Virus record (IMG/VR): IMGVR_UViG_3300046506_000206
Location: 1 to 26,995 of that record
Length of the DNA: 26,995 nt
DNA from: a virus
Direction: 5' to 3' (one strand)
Below the pieces are notes generated by a model. It saw only the letters and a program-made list of their open reading frames with translations. It was not told where the DNA came from and made no database searches. Of the stretch, positions 1-14,968 are shown one piece after another. The position numbers were made by a program, and so were the translations under genes. How positions within the stretch are numbered: position 1 is the first letter of the stretch; every line of letters starts with the position of its first letter.

Positions 1-698
1 CCGGGCCAGAAGTAGTTGAGACCGAACACCCCGGCAACCGAGACCGAGCACCAGCAGCCGCCGCGGACGAGCGCATGGCCCGACCAATCGCTGCCAGCCT
101 TCGGATACCAGCCCACGCCGCGCTCCATCGAGGGGAACGGCGCGCTGGTGACCGACGGCGAGTCAGCCGCGAAGGCGCGGGCCACCAGGCCGTTTTCGTC
201 GCCCTGCACATTGTCGAAAATCCACGAGTACAGGTTGCCGGCCGCGTCGCAGATGGTCTGGCCGTTCGACAGCACGAACATGCGGCGCTCGGCCGGATCG
301 CGTGACACGAAGTCGCCGGCGTAAGGCTCGTCGACGTCGTCCAGGTCGAGGTGCAGGCCATGCAGCAGCGAACCCTCGCCGACCTTGCCACCGGTCCAGT
401 TCGCGTCCTGCTGCGCCACGTTCACCGCGATGGCCAGCGCCTGCAGTTCGGTCAGCAGCGCGAAGCCGGCGTCGGCGCAGGCCTGGCGCGCGGCTGCATA
501 GTCGATGCTCACCCACGGCTTGGCGGTAGCGCTCACTGCCGCCTTGCCGTCGGCGCCCTGCGAGCAGAAGTACTGGCCCACCTGGAAGGCTTCGACGACG
601 GTGCCATTGGGCAGGGTGGTCGCGGGGACGGTGACGAACAGGTGCTGCGCGGTGCTGGCGATTGCCGCGGGTGCGACATCGATGATTTCAGAGGACAT
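1..698 (-). CDS. C-type-lectin/FGE-fold protein, probable DGR variable target (3' end cut off)
   Basis: The reading frame is open from ATG at 698 to the window edge, giving 232 codons and no stop. A Shine-Dalgarno AAGGGAG lies about 8 nt upstream. The C-terminal half has the style of formylglycine-generating-enzyme/C-type-lectin domains: GNLYSWIFDNVQG near residue 153, GVGWYPKAGSDWSG near 200, then LVRGG. The last 25 codons resemble the variable region of DGR target proteins: RGGCWCSVSVAGVFG followed by LNYFWPG. This is an RGG scaffold with scattered Cys, Tyr, Phe, Gly and Val codons mostly of NNC/NNT form, as expected where template AAY codons are randomised. Such domains usually display a ligand-binding surface. 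The reverse transcriptase and template repeat would lie left of position 1, so the DGR assignment is inference; an ordinary FGE-sulfatase-like protein is the alternative. It is the last visible gene of the leftward early operon. Confidence 0.7.
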   Translation of the reverse strand, partial: MSSEIIDVAPAAIASTAQHLFVTVPATTLPNGTVVEAFQVGQYFCSQGADGKAAVSATAKPWVSIDYAAARQACADAGFALLTELQALAIAVNVAQQDANWTGGKVGEGSLLHGLHLDLDDVDEPYAGDFVSRDPAERRMFVLSNGQTICDAAGNLYSWIFDNVQGDENGLVARAFAADSPSVTSAPFPSMERGVGWYPKAGSDWSGHALVRGGCWCSVSVAGVFGLNYFWP

Positions 699-1286
699 CT
701 GTGTTCTCCCTTGTTGTGGTTGGTGGGACTGCTGGATGTTGATGGTTGAAACCGCGTCCGGCGGACGGGGCTGGTTTGGGTAGGACCCGGTGTAGGTGCC
801 GTCCGGGAGCTGGAAGCAGCCGGACACGCCAAGCGGGATAGGCGGCCGGTCCAGCTTGCTGGCGGCGCTGGCTTCGGGGCAGCCGTCAGCGTGCATCTGG
901 CCGTCTTTCGCGAAGCAGATCGGGCAGTACAGGCCGGTGATCGCGGATGCGCGCCCACCGAGGATGCTCGGCGGGAAAACGGTGCCCGAGCGGCCGACCG
1001 GGCAGTAGGGTAGGTGCCGGTGCCCAGGCTCCACCGCGCAGCCGGGGCAGTTGCCGTCCTTGCCCGGGCAGCTGTCGGCGTGCGGCTGGCCCTGCGGCGC
1101 GCAGCACCCTGGGCAGGCGTCCGCGCCGTCCGGGATCTCTTCGGCCAGCAGGTCGAGCGCACGCTGGGTGTCCTGGCACAGCGGGCACAGGTGGGCGTGG
1201 TGCGAATTCATCCGCTGGTGGTCGTCGAGCAGGCGTGTGAGCAGCCGGTGCAGGGCGACGGGCGAGGTCTGTTCGTGCGCGCTCAT
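699..1286 (-). CDS. Cysteine-rich zinc-knuckle ORF, open into the downstream gene
   Basis: ATG at 1286 overlaps the rdgC stop as ATGA, which indicates translational coupling. The 196 codons contain three copies of exactly C-x2-C-x7-H-x3-C, at residues 58-73, 80-95 and 121-136, plus an extra C-P-L-C at 34-37 preceded by several His. This suggests three or four small zinc-binding knuckles; nucleic-acid or protein binding is likely but unproven. There is no stop codon before the next ATG at 698, which is in the same frame, so the ORF could form a 428-plus-residue fusion with the lectin-like protein. The segment just before 698 (residues about 165-196, rich in Pro, Gln and Ser) reads like an untranslated leader with its own ribosome binding site, so a lost stop codon is also possible. 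I do not recognise the family. Confidence 0.6.
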
Positions 1287-2197
1287 GCCGCTTCCTTCTG
1301 CGCTGCGCCGTCGCGCTCCTCGCCGCCCAGAGCCTCGACCAAGTCGGCCAGCAGCTTGGCCAGTTCGCCGCTCATCAGCGCGAAGTCGCTGTCGAGGCGA
1401 TCTTCCGCGTGAAGGCCGGCGGCGCCTTCCTTGAGCACGTCGAGCGGCCTGACCGATTTGATCGCCAGCGCATCATCGAGCACGAACGAAATCCGGCCCT
1501 GCCACGTCATGGCCAGGCGCGTGCACTGCTTGCCGGCGGCGATGTGGCGGCGCATGTCGTCCGGCTCGAGCGTGTGCCGCTTGTAGCCCACCTGCGCCCG
1601 GCTCTCGCCGCTGGCGCGCATCGTTGCGTCCTGGTCGATCGTGAAGCCGTGCGGCGCCTCGTCCGACTCCAGCCAGCCGGTCATTACCGCCACCGGCGAG
1701 CGCTGCACACGCAGGCTTTCCAGTGGCATGCGGTCGACCGCCTTGAACAGCAGCTTGACCACGTCGTCCGCCTTGCCGACGCTGGAGGTGTCCACCACCA
1801 GCCAGCCGTTGACCGGGTCGATCCAGACGCGCACGTCGCTGCGGATCGAAAAGGCGCGCGGCAGCAGCTCGTTGGCCACGCGTTCCTTCAGTTCCTTCAT
1901 CGCCTTCTTCCCGGGCGGGAAGCCCTGCTGCTCTTCCAGTTCGCCGGCGCGGGCCTTGGCGACCTGGTTGATCACGGAGGAGGGCAGCAGCTTCTTCTCG
2001 GTCGACAGCTGCAGCAGGTACTGGCCGCCAACGCTGTGCACGAGGGCGTCGGCGCGCGGCGCGGTCCAGCCCTGGCGCAGCAGCTCGTTGCTCGACGGCG
2101 GCGTGAAGGCGTGGCGCTGCAGCGCGCCGGCCAGCGCGTCGGCGCTCATCGCCCACGGTGCTGGCAGGCGGTACAGGTGAAGGTTCTTGAAGAACAT
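1283..2197 (-). CDS. rdgC: Recombination-associated protein RdgC
   Basis: The 304-residue protein matches the usual RdgC length of about 300. It has the family layout: an N-terminal [18 protein letters not shown] near residue 40, LLPSSVIN near 75, LLPRAFSIR near 110, [12 protein letters not shown] near 125, and a C-terminal [21 protein letters not shown]. RdgC forms ring-shaped DNA-binding dimers and in E. coli limits RecA loading and recombination. Prophage copies probably modulate recombination during phage replication. ATG 2197 was chosen because AAGGGAA precedes it and the family begins here; the longer in-frame extension upstream is compositionally non-coding. The stop overlaps the next start as ATGA. 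Placement in a PL-type operon resembles the position of recombination and host-inhibition genes in lambdoid phages. Confidence 0.93.
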
Positions 2198-6071: not shown

Positions 6072-6617
6072 TTACGACTTGCGCCGGCGGGCGGATGGGC
6101 GGCCAACGCTGCTCAAAGTCGAAGGCTTATCTCCCGTCGCGCGGCGAATTCCGTCAGAATCCATCGGTCGAACCATCTCTTTGACGCCCCTAGCCAGAGC
6201 TGATATGTGCGTTTCTGCCTCCACTTTCCCTCGCTCATCGAGTTGCGCGATCAAGCCAAGTATGCGGCGCTCAAATTCACCAATCCCAAGCGGTGCGCCG
6301 GGACTTCTGGCCGGCACCTCCTGCCCCGTGTAGCTCTCCACGACCGATGCCACAACCTTGCGCTGCGCTTCGGTAAGTTTAGCAATCTGAGCGGTAAGCG
6401 GGTCGGTCCCGGCGCCAAGGCCCTCGCCCGTTTCAAGCCATAAGGCATCAACGTCTAGCACCTTGGCGATAACGGCCAGCTTGCGCGCACTAAAGCGAAT
6501 GCGTGACTCGAGATTGCCTATCGTCGACTGCGACACCCCGGCCGCCTTCGCCAACTCATCCTGAGTCATCCCTTTATCTGTCCGCGCTTTTATTAGCCGG
6601 TCCGCTAAATCTTTCAT
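6072..6617 (-). CDS. CI-like XRE-family phage repressor without a peptidase domain
   Basis: The 181-residue protein has an N-terminal helix-turn-helix of the XRE/CI type: LADRLIKARTDKGMTQDELA, AAGVSQSTIGNLE, then LAVIAKVLDVDALWLETGEG. It sits divergently from a Cro-like gene. The C-terminal half lacks the Gly-Ser and Lys motifs of S24/LexA peptidases and instead contains helical segments (LTAQIAKLTEAQRKVVASVV; FERRILGLIAQLDERGK) that probably mediate oligomerisation. ATG 6617 is preferred because the in-frame GTG at 6647 lies inside operator OR2; neither has a strong ribosome binding site. It likely binds the AAACACrTATGTGAT sites at PR and PL. Without a cleavable domain, induction probably uses an antirepressor or another route. 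Confidence 0.85.
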   Translation of the reverse strand: MKDLADRLIKARTDKGMTQDELAKAAGVSQSTIGNLESRIRFSARKLAVIAKVLDVDALWLETGEGLGAGTDPLTAQIAKLTEAQRKVVASVVESYTGQEVPARSPGAPLGIGEFERRILGLIAQLDERGKVEAETHISALARGVKEMVRPMDSDGIRRATGDKPSTLSSVGRPSARRRKS

Positions 6618-6641
6618 CTTTGGAATGGTATCGGAAACCGT

Positions 6642-6656
6642 AAACACGATGGTGTT
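6642..6656. promoter_or_regulatory. Operator OR2
   Basis: AAACACGATGGTGTT is a degenerate copy of the OR1 site, 35 bp away. It overlaps the start region of the repressor gene, so it is placed to autoregulate it. Confidence 0.5.
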
Positions 6657-8553: not shown

Positions 8554-10547
8554 AGCGCGACCTGATGACCCTGGCGCTCGACCTGGGTGACGAGCTGATC
8601 GTTGACAACTTCGCCGGTGGCGGCGGCACCAGCACCGGGCTGGAGGACGCATTCGGCCGTCCGGTCGACATCGCCATCAACCACGACCCGGAAGCGCTGG
8701 CGATGCACGCACTTAACCATCCGTTCACGCGGCACCTGTGCGAGAGCGTGTGGGACGTGGACCCGGTCAAAATCACCAACAACCAGCCGGTCGGCCTGGT
8801 GTGGCTGTCCCCGGACTGCAAGCACTTCAGCAAGGCCAAGGGCGGCAAGCCGGTCGAGAAGAAAATCCGGGGCCTCGCCTGGGTGACCATGCGCTGGGCC
8901 GCCAAGTGCAAGCCGCGCGTGATCATGCTGGAGAACGTCGAGGAGTTCCAGACGTGGGGCCCGCTGATGCGCAAGATGGTCGACGGCGTCGAGGTCTGGC
9001 TGCCGGATCCTGCCAAGAAGGGCGTGACCTTCCGCAGCTTCAAGCGCCAACTCGAGGGCCACGGCTACAAGATCGAATTCCGCGAGCTGCGCGCCAGTGA
9101 CCTCAACACGCCGACGATCCGCAAGCGCCTGTTCATGGTGGCGCGCCGCGACGACCTGCCCATCCTGTGGCCGGAGCAGAGCCACGCGGCACCGGACCAC
9201 CCGATGGTCCGGGCCGGGAAAATGAAGCCGTATCGCACCGCCGCCGAATGCATCGACTGGGCGCTGCCGTGCCCGTCGATCTTCGGCCGCAAGCGCCCGC
9301 TGGCCGAGGCAACCTTGCGCCGGATCGCCAAGGGGATCATGCGCTACGTGGTCGACAGTGCCAGCCCGTTCATCGTCGGCCAAGGCGGCCCGATTTATTC
9401 GGGAAAACCAGTCAGTGCCAACCAGCCAATGGGTACGCTGACGACCGAGAACCATCGGTCCATCGTCGTGCCGTCCATCGTGCCGGTCACGCATCAGGGC
9501 AGCGACCGTAGCGAATCGGTGCACGAGCCGTTCCGCACCATCACCTGCGCGAATCGCGGCGAGAAGGCGCTGGCGCAGGCGACGCTGCAGCCGGTCGGGA
9601 ACAACGCGCAGCTCGTCAGCGCTTTCCTGAACGAGCACGCGAACGCGAGCAACCAGCGCGTGATGGCAGTCGACCAGCCGCTGCGCACCCAATGCGCCGA
9701 GGTCAAGGGCGGCCACTTCAGTGTGGTCTCGGCTGCGCTGGTTGGCGTCGGTGGGCGCGCCGGCGACAGCCGCCCGCGAGGGGTCGATGAGCCGACGGCG
9801 ACCACGACGTCCAAGGGTGACGTCGCGCTCGCCACGGCGTTCCTCGCAAAGCACTACACCGGGGTGGTGGGTTCCGATCTGGAAGACCCGATCGGGACAA
9901 TCACGGCCAGCGACCATCACAGCCTGGTGTCGGCGCATCTGACGAAATTCCGTACCGGGTCGACCGGCAGCGACATGTCCGACCCGATGCCGACCATCAC
10001 GGCCGGGCCGAAGGAGAATCCGGCCGGCGCGGCGCACGCGCTGGGCGTGGTGTCGTCGCACCTCGTCAAGCTGCGCGGCACCAGCAGCACCGCCAGCATG
10101 GACGAGCCGCTGCACACCATCAGCGCGCAGGGCCAGCACCATGCCGAGGTGCGAGCCTTCCTGATGAAGTATTACAGCACCGATCAGGATCCTCGCATGG
10201 AAGAGCCGCTGCACACGATCACCACGAAGGATCGCTTCGGGCTGGTGACGATCCACGGCCAGGACTACCAGATCGTGGACATCGGCCTGCGCATGCTGGC
10301 GCCGCACGAGCTCTACCGCGCGCAAGGCTTCCCGAGCACCTATGTGATCAATGAAATTCCGGACCCCAAGCTGCTGTTCGTGAACGGCCGCCAGGTCGAC
10401 GGCGACCCGCGCCTGCTGCCGCGCATCCCGCTTCCCAAGTCGTCGCAGGTCCGGATGTGCGGCAACAGCGTCTGCCCGACCGTCGCCGCCGCCCTGGTCA
10501 GGGCCAACTTCAAGCACGAGCGCCAGATTGTGAGGGCTGCCGCATGA
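8550..10547 (+). CDS. DNA (cytosine-5)-methyltransferase with repeated target-recognition insert
   Basis: The 665-residue protein has C5-MTase motifs in order: motif I DNFAGGGGTSTGLE (19-32), catalytic Cys90 in SPDCKHFS (the usual PCQ is replaced), ENV (128-130), TPTIRKRLF (187-195), then ELYRAQGF and MCGNSVCPTVA (636-646). Between motif VIII and the end, residues about 290-566 hold eight degenerate repeats spaced 32-50 residues, each with a core such as EPLHTITTKDRFGLV or DPIGTITASDHHSLV. This region replaces the target-recognition domain and is far larger than in a 330-residue enzyme. The product methylates cytosine in DNA, probably phage DNA, to evade host restriction. No cognate restriction enzyme is nearby. 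It is coupled (ATGA) to the genes on both sides. Confidence 0.92.
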   Translation: MKRDLMTLALDLGDELIVDNFAGGGGTSTGLEDAFGRPVDIAINHDPEALAMHALNHPFTRHLCESVWDVDPVKITNNQPVGLVWLSPDCKHFSKAKGGKPVEKKIRGLAWVTMRWAAKCKPRVIMLENVEEFQTWGPLMRKMVDGVEVWLPDPAKKGVTFRSFKRQLEGHGYKIEFRELRASDLNTPTIRKRLFMVARRDDLPILWPEQSHAAPDHPMVRAGKMKPYRTAAECIDWALPCPSIFGRKRPLAEATLRRIAKGIMRYVVDSASPFIVGQGGPIYSGKPVSANQPMGTLTTENHRSIVVPSIVPVTHQGSDRSESVHEPFRTITCANRGEKALAQATLQPVGNNAQLVSAFLNEHANASNQRVMAVDQPLRTQCAEVKGGHFSVVSAALVGVGGRAGDSRPRGVDEPTATTTSKGDVALATAFLAKHYTGVVGSDLEDPIGTITASDHHSLVSAHLTKFRTGSTGSDMSDPMPTITAGPKENPAGAAHALGVVSSHLVKLRGTSSTASMDEPLHTISAQGQHHAEVRAFLMKYYSTDQDPRMEEPLHTITTKDRFGLVTIHGQDYQIVDIGLRMLAPHELYRAQGFPSTYVINEIPDPKLLFVNGRQVDGDPRLLPRIPLPKSSQVRMCGNSVCPTVAAALVRANFKHERQIVRAAA

Positions 10548-11773
10548 GCCAGATCGACATCTTCGCCGCCGGCGCCCGCCGCCTGCAAATGACCGAGTCG
10601 ATCGAACTGACGATCCAGTCGATGCAAGCCTACGGTGCCGACCACGACCATTGGGGCATCGCCTGGTCCGGGGGCAAGGACAGCAGTGCAACGCTGACCC
10701 TGATCATCTGGCTGCTCGACGCCGGCAAGATCAAGCGCCCGAAGTCGCTGACTGTGTTCTATGCCGACACCCGGCAGGAGCTGCCGCCGCTGGCCATCGC
10801 GGCGCGACAGATCATGGACGAACTGGAAGAGCGCGGCATCCGCGTCGAGGTCGTGACCGCGCCGATGGACAAGCGCTTCATGGTCTACATCCTCGGTCGC
10901 GGCGTGCCGCCGCCGAACAACAACACGCTGCGCTGGTGCACCCGCCAGATCAAGATCGACCCGATGGAGCAAGCGCTGCGCGACCGCCTCGATCAGCTCG
11001 ACGGCCAAATCCTGATGATCACCGGCGTGCGCCAGGGCGAGAGCGCGATGCGCGACCGGCGCATCGAGATGAGTTGCGGGAAGGATGGCGCCGAGTGCGG
11101 GCAGGGCTGGTATCAGCAGGTTCTGCCGAACGCGAAAGGCTTGCGCGGGAGGTTGGCCACGCTGGCGCCGCTGCTGCACTGGCGCGTGTGCCACGTGTGG
11201 GAATGGCTGCGCCACTGGGCCACCAGCGCCGAATTCGGCGACTGGAGCACCGCCACCATTGCCGACGCCTATGGCGGCGATGAAGCCGAGGAAGTCAACG
11301 CGCGCACCGGCTGCATCGGCTGCCCGCTGGCATCCGAAGACACGGCATTGGACAACATCCTGCTCAACCCGCAATGGGCCTACCTAGCGCCGCTCAAGGG
11401 CCTGAAGGTGCTGTGGCGCGAACTGCGCGAGCCGCATCACCGGCTGAAGAAGGCAGGGCTCGAGCGACTGCAGGACGGCAGCATCGCCAAGAACCCACAG
11501 CGCATGGGGCCGCTCACGTTCGAAGCGCGCCTGATGGGCCTCGAACGGGTGCTCGGCATCCAGGCGGAGGTCAACGCGGTCGCCCGCGCCACCGGCCGCC
11601 CGGAGATCGACCTGATCAACACCGAGGAGGAGGCGCGGATTCGCGATCTGATCGCGTTGCATACCTGGCCGCAGGGCTGGGACGGTGACGAGCCGCTCGC
11701 GACGACCGTCATGGACACCGTCTACCAGAACGGCGCCGTGCAGCCGCGCCTGTTCTCGGAGGCCGACCGATGA
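10544..11773 (+). CDS. DndC/PAPS-reductase-family PP-loop ATPase
   Basis: The 409-residue protein has a PP-loop, AWSGGKDSSATLTL (40-53), followed by FYADTRQELPP, then LRWCTRQIKIDP with Cys132, GVRQGESAMRDRR (161-173) and a C-x2-C, TGCIGC (257 and 260). Cys178 and Cys185 lie between. Four or more such Cys suggest an iron-sulfur cluster. The order is that of PAPS reductases and of DndC, the sulfur-transfer protein of DNA phosphorothioation. Here no DndA, B, D or E is present, and the gene is locked between a cytosine methyltransferase and a helicase-methyltransferase by ATGA overlaps. A nucleotide- or DNA-modifying role is inferred; phage PAPS-reductase-like proteins mostly have unknown substrates. 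Confidence 0.85.
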   Translation: MSQIDIFAAGARRLQMTESIELTIQSMQAYGADHDHWGIAWSGGKDSSATLTLIIWLLDAGKIKRPKSLTVFYADTRQELPPLAIAARQIMDELEERGIRVEVVTAPMDKRFMVYILGRGVPPPNNNTLRWCTRQIKIDPMEQALRDRLDQLDGQILMITGVRQGESAMRDRRIEMSCGKDGAECGQGWYQQVLPNAKGLRGRLATLAPLLHWRVCHVWEWLRHWATSAEFGDWSTATIADAYGGDEAEEVNARTGCIGCPLASEDTALDNILLNPQWAYLAPLKGLKVLWRELREPHHRLKKAGLERLQDGSIAKNPQRMGPLTFEARLMGLERVLGIQAEVNAVARATGRPEIDLINTEEEARIRDLIALHTWPQGWDGDEPLATTVMDTVYQNGAVQPRLFSEADR

Positions 11774-12285
11774 GCCGCGCCATTACCCGCAGCCCGAGCC
11801 GCTGCGTCGACTGCAGCTGGCCACTCGGCGAGCAGCACGCTCCCGGCTGCCGCTTCGCCCTGCTTCACGATGAGGAAATCAGCATGACCCAACCATTACC
11901 AAAACGAAGCTCGGCCGCCTACCTGGCCGGGGCACTGATCTACGAAGAGGGCTCGAAGATCGACGCCGACCTGTTCGGACGCGTGCACTTCGGGACCAAG
12001 CCGAGCGTGCGTGTGGCCAACCTCGAGCGCGACATCCAGTCCGGCTGGCTGCGCCGGCTGTCGTGCGGTCGCATCGCCTTGACCGACAGGTCCCTGCAGC
12101 ATTACGAGGGCGCCCAGACGCCGCCCGAGCCGAAATTCGTCGGCCAGGTCGCCGCGCCGCGCCAGATTGACCTGATGAACAGGCCACCGATCAGCAAGCG
12201 CTTCATCCCGAGTGTGCGCGGGATCCGGACGGACATCCCGGCGTGGTCGATCAAGACCGGCGCCGGCGCATCCTGCAAGGGCTGA
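11770..12285 (+). CDS. Zinc-knuckle plus winged-helix-like small protein
   Basis: ATG 11770 overlaps the previous stop as ATGA and gives 171 residues. The N-terminus carries CVDCSWPLGEQHAPGC (residues 12-27), the same C-x2-C-x7-H-x3-C spacing as the knuckle ORF at 699-1286. A second start at 11884 (MTQPLPKRSS) has its own GAGGAAATC and would drop the knuckle. The following part (SAAYLAGALIYEEGSKIDAD, then VANLERDIQSGWLRRLSCG and IALTDRSLQHYEG) looks like a winged helix. The C-terminus is basic and flexible. The role is unknown; DNA binding within the modification cluster is likely. Confidence 0.65.
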   Translation: MSRAITRSPSRCVDCSWPLGEQHAPGCRFALLHDEEISMTQPLPKRSSAAYLAGALIYEEGSKIDADLFGRVHFGTKPSVRVANLERDIQSGWLRRLSCGRIALTDRSLQHYEGAQTPPEPKFVGQVAAPRQIDLMNRPPISKRFIPSVRGIRTDIPAWSIKTGAGASCKG

Positions 12286-12295
12286 GAAAAACGAA

Positions 12296-12324
12296 GCCGC
12301 CGCCAGGTGCGAACTGGCAGCGGC
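12296..12324 (+). other. Intercistronic GC-rich hairpin 2
   Basis: GCCGCCGCCAG, a 7-nt loop and CTGGCAGCGGC pair over 11 positions with one mismatch. It starts 10 nt after a stop and ends 28 nt before the TTG start of the helicase-methyltransferase. There is no T-tract. Confidence 0.6.
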
Positions 12325-12352
12325 CTCTGACCAAAGACAACGGAGATCGAAA

Positions 12353-14968
12353 TTGGCTGACAATATTTTATCAAGGTATAACGACTTCCTGAGGGGGAAG
12401 ATCAAGCTTGCGCCGCGGCTCGGCTTCGACGTGCCGCTCGCGCAGATCAATCCGAACCTCAAGCCGCACACCCGCGACATCGTGCAGTGGGCGCTGCGCG
12501 GCGGTCAGCGCGCCGTGTTCGCCAGCTTCGGCCTGCACAAGACCAGCACCGCGCTGGAGGTGATGCGCCAGATCGGCATCCACCGGCCGTGCCTGCGCCT
12601 GATCGTGTTGCCGCTCGGCGTGCGTCAGGAGTTCAGTCGTGAAGTGGCCAAGCGCTTCACCGGCGAGCACGCGATCGACCTGAAATTCATCCGCTCCGAC
12701 GCCGAGGTCGACGGCGTGGACACCATCTACATGACCAACTACGAGACGGTCCGCGAGGGCAAGCTCACGGTCAGCCGCTTCGGCGCCGCCTCGCTCGACG
12801 AGGCGAGCGTGCTGCGCAGCTACGGCAGCAAGACCTACCAGGAGTTCCTGCCGCTGTTCGAGCAGGTCGAGTTCCGCTTCGTGTTCACCGCTACCCCAAG
12901 CCCGAACCGCTTCAAGGAACTGATCCACTACGCTGGGTTCCTCGGCGTGATGGACACCGGCCAGGCGCTGACCCGCTTCTTCCAGCGCGACAGCGAAAAG
13001 GCCGGCAATTTGACGTTGTACCCGCACAAGGAGCAGGAGTTCTGGCTGTGGGTGGCCAGCTGGGCTTGCTTCATCCGCAAGCCGAGCGACCTTGGGCACT
13101 CGGACGATGGCTATGACCTGCCGCCGATGGAAGTGCGCTATCACGAAGTGCCGAGCGACTACGACACGGCTGGCGCCGAAAAGAACGGCCAAGGCTTGCT
13201 GATCCCGAACGTCGCCATGGGACTATCGGCTGCGGCTGGAGAGAAGCGCGACAGCATGGCTGCGCGTGTTGCCAAGGTTGCGGAAATCATGGCCGCCTCG
13301 CCAGAAGATCATTTCCTGATATGGCACGACCTGGAGGATGAGCGTCACGCGATCCAGAAAGCGATACCGGACGTAGTGAGCGTATGGGGTACCCAGAACT
13401 TGGACGAGCGCGAGCAGCGTATTGCCGACTTTTGCGACGGGAAGATCAAATACCTGTCCACCAAGCCGGCCATCGCCGGATCTGGCACGAACGCGCAGGC
13501 GCATTGCCACCGCGAGATCTTCTCCGGCATCGGATTCAAGTTCAACGATTTCATCCAAAGCATCCACCGGGTAAAGCGGTTCGGGCAGACCAAGCCGGTC
13601 ATCATCGACATCATCCATACCGAAGTCGAGCGGGAAGTGCTCAAGACGCTGCAGGAGAAGTGGCGCCGCCACGACGAGATGCAGGCCACCATGGGCGAGA
13701 TCATCCGCACCTACGGGCTGGACCACCTGTCGATGCAGGACTCGCTGGCGCGCACCATCGGTGTCGAGCGCCAGGTGGTCAAGGGCGAGCGCTTCACGGT
13801 CGCCAACAATGACTGCGTGTTGGAGGCGCTCGCGCAGCCCGACAACTCGGTCGGCCTGATCGTGACTAGCATCCCGTTCGCCAATCATTACGAGTACACG
13901 CCCAGCTACAACGACTTCGGCCACACCCAGGACAACCACCACTTCTGGGAGCAGATGGATTTCCTGACCCCGCAGCTGCACCGGATCCTGCAGCCCGGCC
14001 GAATCTATGCCTGCCACGTCAAGGACAGGATCAACTTCGGCAACGTCACTGGCGCCGGGCTGCCGACCGTCAGCCCGTTCCATGCCGAGGCGCTGTTCCA
14101 CGGTATGAAGCACGGCTTCGACTACATGGGCATGATCACGGTGGTCACCGACGTGGTGCGCGAGAACAACCAGACCTACCGGCTCGGCTATTCCGAGGTA
14201 TGCAAGGACGGCACCAAGATGGGCGTTGGCTCTCCCGAGTACATCCTGCTGTTCCACAAGCCGCAATCGGACCGCAGCCGCGGCTACGCCGACGTCCCGG
14301 TCACCAAGGCCAAGCCGCTGTGCCAGGCCGACGACGGCGCCGCGGTCGGCTTCGACCGCCGTCTGGCGCCGATTCCCGGTACCGGTTACAGCGTCGCGCG
14401 CTGGCAGGTCGATGCGCACGCGTTCTGGCGCTCCAGCGGCAACCGTCTGCTCAGCGCTGCGGAGCTGGCCAGCTACGGCCCGGCCAAGCTGGCCAAGATG
14501 TTCACCGGAATGTCGATGGACAACGTCTACGACTACGAATACCACGTCGCGGTCGGCGAACAGATGCTGGCCAACAAAACGCTGCCGTCCGACTACCTGA
14601 GCCTGGCGCCGGGCAGCACCGACCCGATGGTCTGGCACGACATCGTGCGGATGCGCACCCTCAACGGCGAGCAGTCGTCGCGCGCCGTCGAAAAGCACGT
14701 GTGCCCGTTCCAGATCGACATCGTCGACCGCCTGATCAACCGCTACAGCAACCCGGGCGATACCGTCTACGACCCGTTCGGCGGCCTGGGCACAGTGCCG
14801 GTGCGCGCGATGAAGCTGGGCCGCTATGGCATGGCGTCCGAGCTCAACCCGGCCTATTTCGCCGACCAGGTGCATTACTGCCGGGCGATGGAGCGCGAGG
14901 TCAGCATGCCGACGCTGTTCGACCTGGAAGCGTTGGACGCGGTGCAGGAACGCAAGGAGGCGGCATGA
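12353..14968 (+). CDS. SNF2-like helicase fused to N4/N6-type DNA methyltransferase
   Basis: TTG 12353 (upstream ACGGAG, 8-nt gap) begins 871 residues. Residues about 40-440 form a superfamily-2 helicase: motif I FASFGLHKTSTAL (57-69, with GLHKT in place of GLGKT), motif II LDEAS (148-152), motif III FTATPSPN (178-185) and motif VI IQSIHRVKRFGQ (401-412). Residues about 475-850 form an amino-methyltransferase: TSIPFANHYEY (505-515) in the place of the catalytic (D/N/S)PP(Y/F) motif, and VYDPFGGLGTVPVRAM (805-820) as the SAM-binding motif. The C-terminal SAM motif gives the beta-class order. One polypeptide combining translocation and methylation recalls Type ISP and Type III enzymes but has no nuclease motif that I can see. 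It probably protects or remodels phage DNA. It couples by ATGA to the next gene. Confidence 0.85.
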   Translation: MADNILSRYNDFLRGKIKLAPRLGFDVPLAQINPNLKPHTRDIVQWALRGGQRAVFASFGLHKTSTALEVMRQIGIHRPCLRLIVLPLGVRQEFSREVAKRFTGEHAIDLKFIRSDAEVDGVDTIYMTNYETVREGKLTVSRFGAASLDEASVLRSYGSKTYQEFLPLFEQVEFRFVFTATPSPNRFKELIHYAGFLGVMDTGQALTRFFQRDSEKAGNLTLYPHKEQEFWLWVASWACFIRKPSDLGHSDDGYDLPPMEVRYHEVPSDYDTAGAEKNGQGLLIPNVAMGLSAAAGEKRDSMAARVAKVAEIMAASPEDHFLIWHDLEDERHAIQKAIPDVVSVWGTQNLDEREQRIADFCDGKIKYLSTKPAIAGSGTNAQAHCHREIFSGIGFKFNDFIQSIHRVKRFGQTKPVIIDIIHTEVEREVLKTLQEKWRRHDEMQATMGEIIRTYGLDHLSMQDSLARTIGVERQVVKGERFTVANNDCVLEALAQPDNSVGLIVTSIPFANHYEYTPSYNDFGHTQDNHHFWEQMDFLTPQLHRILQPGRIYACHVKDRINFGNVTGAGLPTVSPFHAEALFHGMKHGFDYMGMITVVTDVVRENNQTYRLGYSEVCKDGTKMGVGSPEYILLFHKPQSDRSRGYADVPVTKAKPLCQADDGAAVGFDRRLAPIPGTGYSVARWQVDAHAFWRSSGNRLLSAAELASYGPAKLAKMFTGMSMDNVYDYEYHVAVGEQMLANKTLPSDYLSLAPGSTDPMVWHDIVRMRTLNGEQSSRAVEKHVCPFQIDIVDRLINRYSNPGDTVYDPFGGLGTVPVRAMKLGRYGMASELNPAYFADQVHYCRAMEREVSMPTLFDLEALDAVQERKEAA

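Follow-up and report, generated by a model that had tools for sequence, protein, structure and literature searches.

A probable target gene of a multi-target diversity-generating retroelement at the truncated edge of a phage genome fragment

A target gene at the left edge of the record

Positions 1-698 of IMGVR_UViG_3300046506_000206, a linear IMG/VR fragment, almost certainly represent the first target gene of a phage-borne diversity-generating retroelement (DGR), truncated by the contig end inside its variable repeat (VR). The whole stretch of 26,995 bases was analysed and is referred to below as the window. A variable DGR target protein at this edge had been proposed in a preliminary description, and the proposal is supported both by the adenine-specific changes in the VR and by the cassette present in three syntenic viral records (L047-L049). 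The system is of a known kind, namely a multi-target DGR with an Avd protein fused to a MutS-I-like domain (the known accessory 'MSL'), with some uncommon features. By analogy with the syntenic records, we infer that this phage's own cassette lies just beyond the edge; the diversified protein is presumably a binding protein.

The target gene occupies positions 3-698 of the minus strand as a frame of 232 codons, which starts with an ATG at 698 preceded by AAGGGAG and remains open to the record's edge, with the C-terminus cut off, in agreement with the frame originally described. The truncated protein had no match in Pfam and matched phrog_2889 and phrog_9572 ('sulfatase-modifying factor enzyme'). 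Its full-length relatives match PF03781 (FGE-sulfatase, E 2.5e-7), the homologues in L002 with 31.1 and 27.2 bits (cut-off 23.3) and other homologues below the cut-off or not at all. The best fold matches are nearly all FGE/EgtB-like, but with E>0.01, and the structure was modelled with low confidence over the VR. The FGE/C-type-lectin domain previously recognised in the frame is thus confirmed through the PF03781 matches of full-length relatives and the two PHROG families. Orthologues with 80% identity and a complete VR were found in L002 and L003, no match to the window gene was found among GenBank phages, and a search of the target for tail domains detected none.

The visible 5' part of the VR extends over positions 1-85 (minus strand), as aligned to the template repeats (TRs) of relatives. 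Its first base is the one aligned with TR 'GGTCGAGCAATG', and the 3' end of the repeat falls beyond the edge together with the homing site and the hairpin. The comparisons are with the TRs of relatives, the phage's own TR being outside the record. Relative to the TR of the syntenic L049, 14 of 17 template adenines are changed, against 6 of 68 other bases (Fisher p 5e-9); relative to the TR of G005, the changes amount to 13/17 adenines and 4/64 other bases. The six non-adenine differences from the L049 TR are best read as divergence between two templates. The impression that the C-terminal codons form a DGR variable region, and that the window is cut within it, was therefore correct, with two amendments. 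The repeat, placed at 1-90, does lie at the left edge and is visible over 1-85, and from the fixed scaffold suggested earlier (RGG, AGVF and WPG), RGG-W-AGVF-WP stands, whereas the Gly of 'WPG' corresponds to a variable codon (GAC in the TR). Both here and in relatives with complete VRs, the repeat is located at the 3' end of the target gene.

The record encodes a number of phage genes, including those for RdgC, a C5 methylase, a DndC-like protein, an N6/N4 methylase, an integrase, terminase subunits, portal, protease and capsid. Neither a reverse transcriptase (RT) nor Avd was found in its 26,995 bases, which is as expected from a contig break inside the repeat. Two further contigs, G006 and G011, likewise terminate in or shortly after FGE-type target genes, an indication that assemblies break because of the variable repeats themselves. 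As a separate observation, the DndC-like/PAPS-reductase-family protein (10457-11773; 82% DNA match in L010) is flanked by the C5 methylase and by a helicase-like N6/N4 methylase. A 918-aa protein (12212-14968) is composed of a weak SNF2-helicase-like part and a split N6/N4 methylase.

Genomic setting and the role of the target

Directly upstream of the target gene lies rdgC (recombination-associated protein; 1283-2197, minus strand; PF04381, E 1e-106; phrog_724), whose stop codon overlaps (ATGA) the start of a Cys-rich ORF (699-1286, minus strand) with the motif CPxCxAKxxQxHAxxC. In both the window and L049 this ORF is in frame with the target gene with no stop between them, and it is either translated on its own or extends the target at the N-terminus; the motif is also present in L049, and a similar one in G005. 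A CI-type repressor (6072-6647, minus strand; HTH_3, 8e-13; Phage_CI_repr, 7e-9) is found upstream of the rdgC/target block on the same strand, and in G008 and G012 the repressor is likewise on the DGR strand. The placement of rdgC beside or between DGR target genes was seen in at least six loci of this family (the window, L049, L009, L013, L045 and L046), and rdgC is adjacent to the DGR cluster or within it in L049/L048, G008, G012, L045 and L046. The DGR neighbours in other relatives are a RecE-like exonuclease, HNH and a DNA-polymerase exonuclease. The late genes of the window are on the opposite strand, from 21.5 kb.

Because of the repressor strand and the early neighbours, with late genes on the other strand, the targets are probably expressed apart from the tail operon. 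There is, all the same, almost an even chance that the target is a tail-associated receptor-binding protein of the virion, and not a protein of the lysogen or of early infection, since tail proteins make up most of the viral DGR targets published for several clades (PMC8144416). Against such a role stand the repressor strand shared with rdgC, the exonuclease and HNH genes adjacent in relatives, the distance from the late genes and a target with no detected tail domain. Compared with published tail targets, the early/repressor placement is a lead and not a demonstration; the target could still be packaged. Tentatively, and with well under even confidence, we propose that the DGR diversifies non-virion proteins from a repressor/early operon (for lysogen surface display, exclusion or sensing), that it is genetically coupled to RdgC and that its template doubles as the translated N-terminus of its RT. 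No report of the rdgC linkage or of a template inside an RT frame was found in the literature searched. The question raised is how a phage benefits from hypermutating proteins that are encoded beside repressor and recombination genes, and not tail fibres.

The cassette in relatives

A protein search for relatives yielded 11 viral loci and one locus of Pseudoduganella rivuli, and an RT is present in seven of these 12 records. With an exact-DNA probe we detected L047-L049, the closest relatives syntenic with the window, which possess rdgC and the same target gene and carry the full cassette on the side that the window lacks. Positions 2-735 of the window match L049 12340-13101 (79%; base 2 of the window corresponds to L049 12340), and 1318-2662 (rdgC) match L049 13290-14620 (77%). 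On the missing side, L049 encodes a second target gene (11380-12006), the MSL-Avd (11257-10406), the TR (near 10296-10379) and the RT (10406-9105), all within 3.3 kb of the equivalent of the window edge. The preliminary description had called for a leftward search for an RT, an Avd-like gene and an adenine-specific template, and had regarded a lack of the RT within about 5 kb, or of such a template, as contrary evidence; in the relatives with the same gene order all of these elements are present and neither deficiency was encountered. In addition, four more cassettes were found in bacterial genomes of the P. rivuli family group, and Avd in 5 of the 394 genomes searched, P. rivuli included.

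These records make it very unlikely that the window holds an orphan target, i.e. an FGE-like gene once diversified by a DGR of which the RT, Avd or template has since been lost. The machinery is indeed not visible in the record, but the record simply stops at the VR, the target frame is open and the VR scaffold retained; furthermore, relatives that extend far enough, syntenic ones included, keep an intact RT in every case except G010, where none was found in 22 kb.

The RTs of the relatives belong to RVT_1, with the nearest solved relative being 8ub7 (E 4e-31), which we take to be the RT of phage BPP-1. Their motifs are IGxLSSQ and YVDD, the former standing in place of the QGxxxSP usual in DGR RTs. 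The 284-aa accessory protein has a C-terminal Avd domain (phrog_3206, 'Avd protein of DGR'; NF033474; PF22296 in 5/5), which was found in all relatives tested with bit scores below curated cut-offs, and an N-terminus with weak matches to MutS domain I (PF01624; best E 0.0059, in L049). Its structure model was poor (pLDDT 47), and only the helical C-terminus was used; no match to the protein was found among GenBank phages. A GC-rich hairpin with a loop of 3-4 nt follows nearly every target, approx. 35-55 nt past the VR end, and is absent after the TR in the relatives examined.

The arrangement is similar to that of the Bordetella phage BPP-1 DGR (mtd-avd-TR-brt) in its target-avd-TR-RT order on one strand, in the adenine-specific TR/VR differences, in an RT related to 8ub7 and in the GC-rich hairpin downstream of the VR, an element known for BPP-1 and other phages (PMC3240598). 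However, BPP-1 has one tail fibre target, whereas two or three FGE-like targets occur here; the Avd has an N-terminal MutS-I-like domain, the hairpin loops are GTAA, GCAA, GTGA or 3 nt and not strictly GRNA, the cassette resides in the early/repressor region beside rdgC, and the TR is inside the RT reading frame. MutS-like 'MSL' accessory proteins are already known in DGRs according to PMC10053308 (citing Wu et al. 2018); the likeness consists of MutS domain I in an accessory protein (weakly matched here), and in the present protein the MutS-like part is fused in front of the Avd domain. DGRs with multiple VRs account for 28.6% of 948 (PMC6642488) and likewise have several target genes served by one TR, but here the targets of one cassette have dissimilar N-termini, and rdgC or RecE-type genes are interspersed among them.

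In six records (L002:9198-10526 and five homologues), an ATG that overlaps the avd stop (ATGA) begins a frame that crosses the TR in a shifted frame before it runs into the RT without a stop. This frame is free of stops in 6/6 and its net indels come in multiples of three, while 1-6 stops interrupt the other two frames; codons 27-127 in L002 contain no ATG, GTG or TTG start. Translation through the TR is for these reasons likely, although not proven, and the template may also be translated as the Thr-rich N-terminus of the RT. Matches to RTs in phage records begin at about residue 100. The TR-RT spacer has no codon-position periodicity (0.26/0.26/0.27, against 0.20/0.20/0.33 in the RT), which would fit a structured RNA that ribosomes traverse.

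If the window follows L049, its missing part would comprise the remainder of the VR and a GC-rich hairpin, then a second target that likewise has a VR and a hairpin, and finally the 284-aa MSL-Avd, the TR and the RT, the frame of which would start at the avd stop codon and pass through the template. The RT would copy the TR transcript and insert random bases opposite adenines (chiefly those of AAC/AAT codons), and the resulting cDNA would take the place of the VR, beginning from the 3' end at the conserved CTG/hairpin site. Approximately ten surface residues of the lectin-like domain would be randomised in this process and the RGG-W-AGVF-WP scaffold kept.

Adenine specificity and natural traces of homing

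Adenine-specific differences, anticipated in the preliminary description, were found in every relative with a template. Among 13 TR/VR pairs from six records with a TR, the repeats differ at 227 of 344 TR adenines and at 3 of 1112 other bases; ten further pairs from four more genomes differ at 157/260 and 1/890, respectively. Pooled over the ten relatives, this gives 384/604 adenines against 4/2002 non-adenines. In L049, the two VRs have 15/24 and 19/24 adenines changed, with zero other changes. It should be noted that a paralogous VR, initially the best repeat partner, looked non-adenine-specific and was replaced by the true TR.

L048 and L049, which are separate IMG/VR records, differ at eight positions in 3,987 aligned bases (L048:3594-7580, L049 reverse strand). 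All eight are in VR1 (orthologous to the window VR), at template adenines and within its 3' half. We read this pattern as a natural footprint of mutagenic homing, as would be expected for partial conversion from the 3' end. The known DGRs of proteobacterial phages are extended here by a lineage in which such before/after pairs occur naturally. G006 and G008 are identical over the 654 nt upstream in each of two target genes, with 20 and 17 differences between their VRs; template adenines account for 34 of these 37. One VR differs between G007 and G008 at two positions, both adenines. Recent homing is thus evident in the relatives, from comparison of natural sequences (L048/L049 and G006/G008) and not from experiment.

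That the target is a working formylglycine-generating enzyme (FGE) whose variable codons reflect ordinary divergence is, despite the FGE-sulfatase and FGE/EgtB-type fold matches, extremely improbable, as the last ~110 bases differ solely at template adenines, near-identical phages differ only there and the catalytic cysteines of FGE presumably fall within the very stretch that is randomised.

In L011, a record in which an RT was looked for and not found, units of 20 nt and 11 nt are repeated in tandem (239-439 and 1261-1513) upstream of a DGR-like target.
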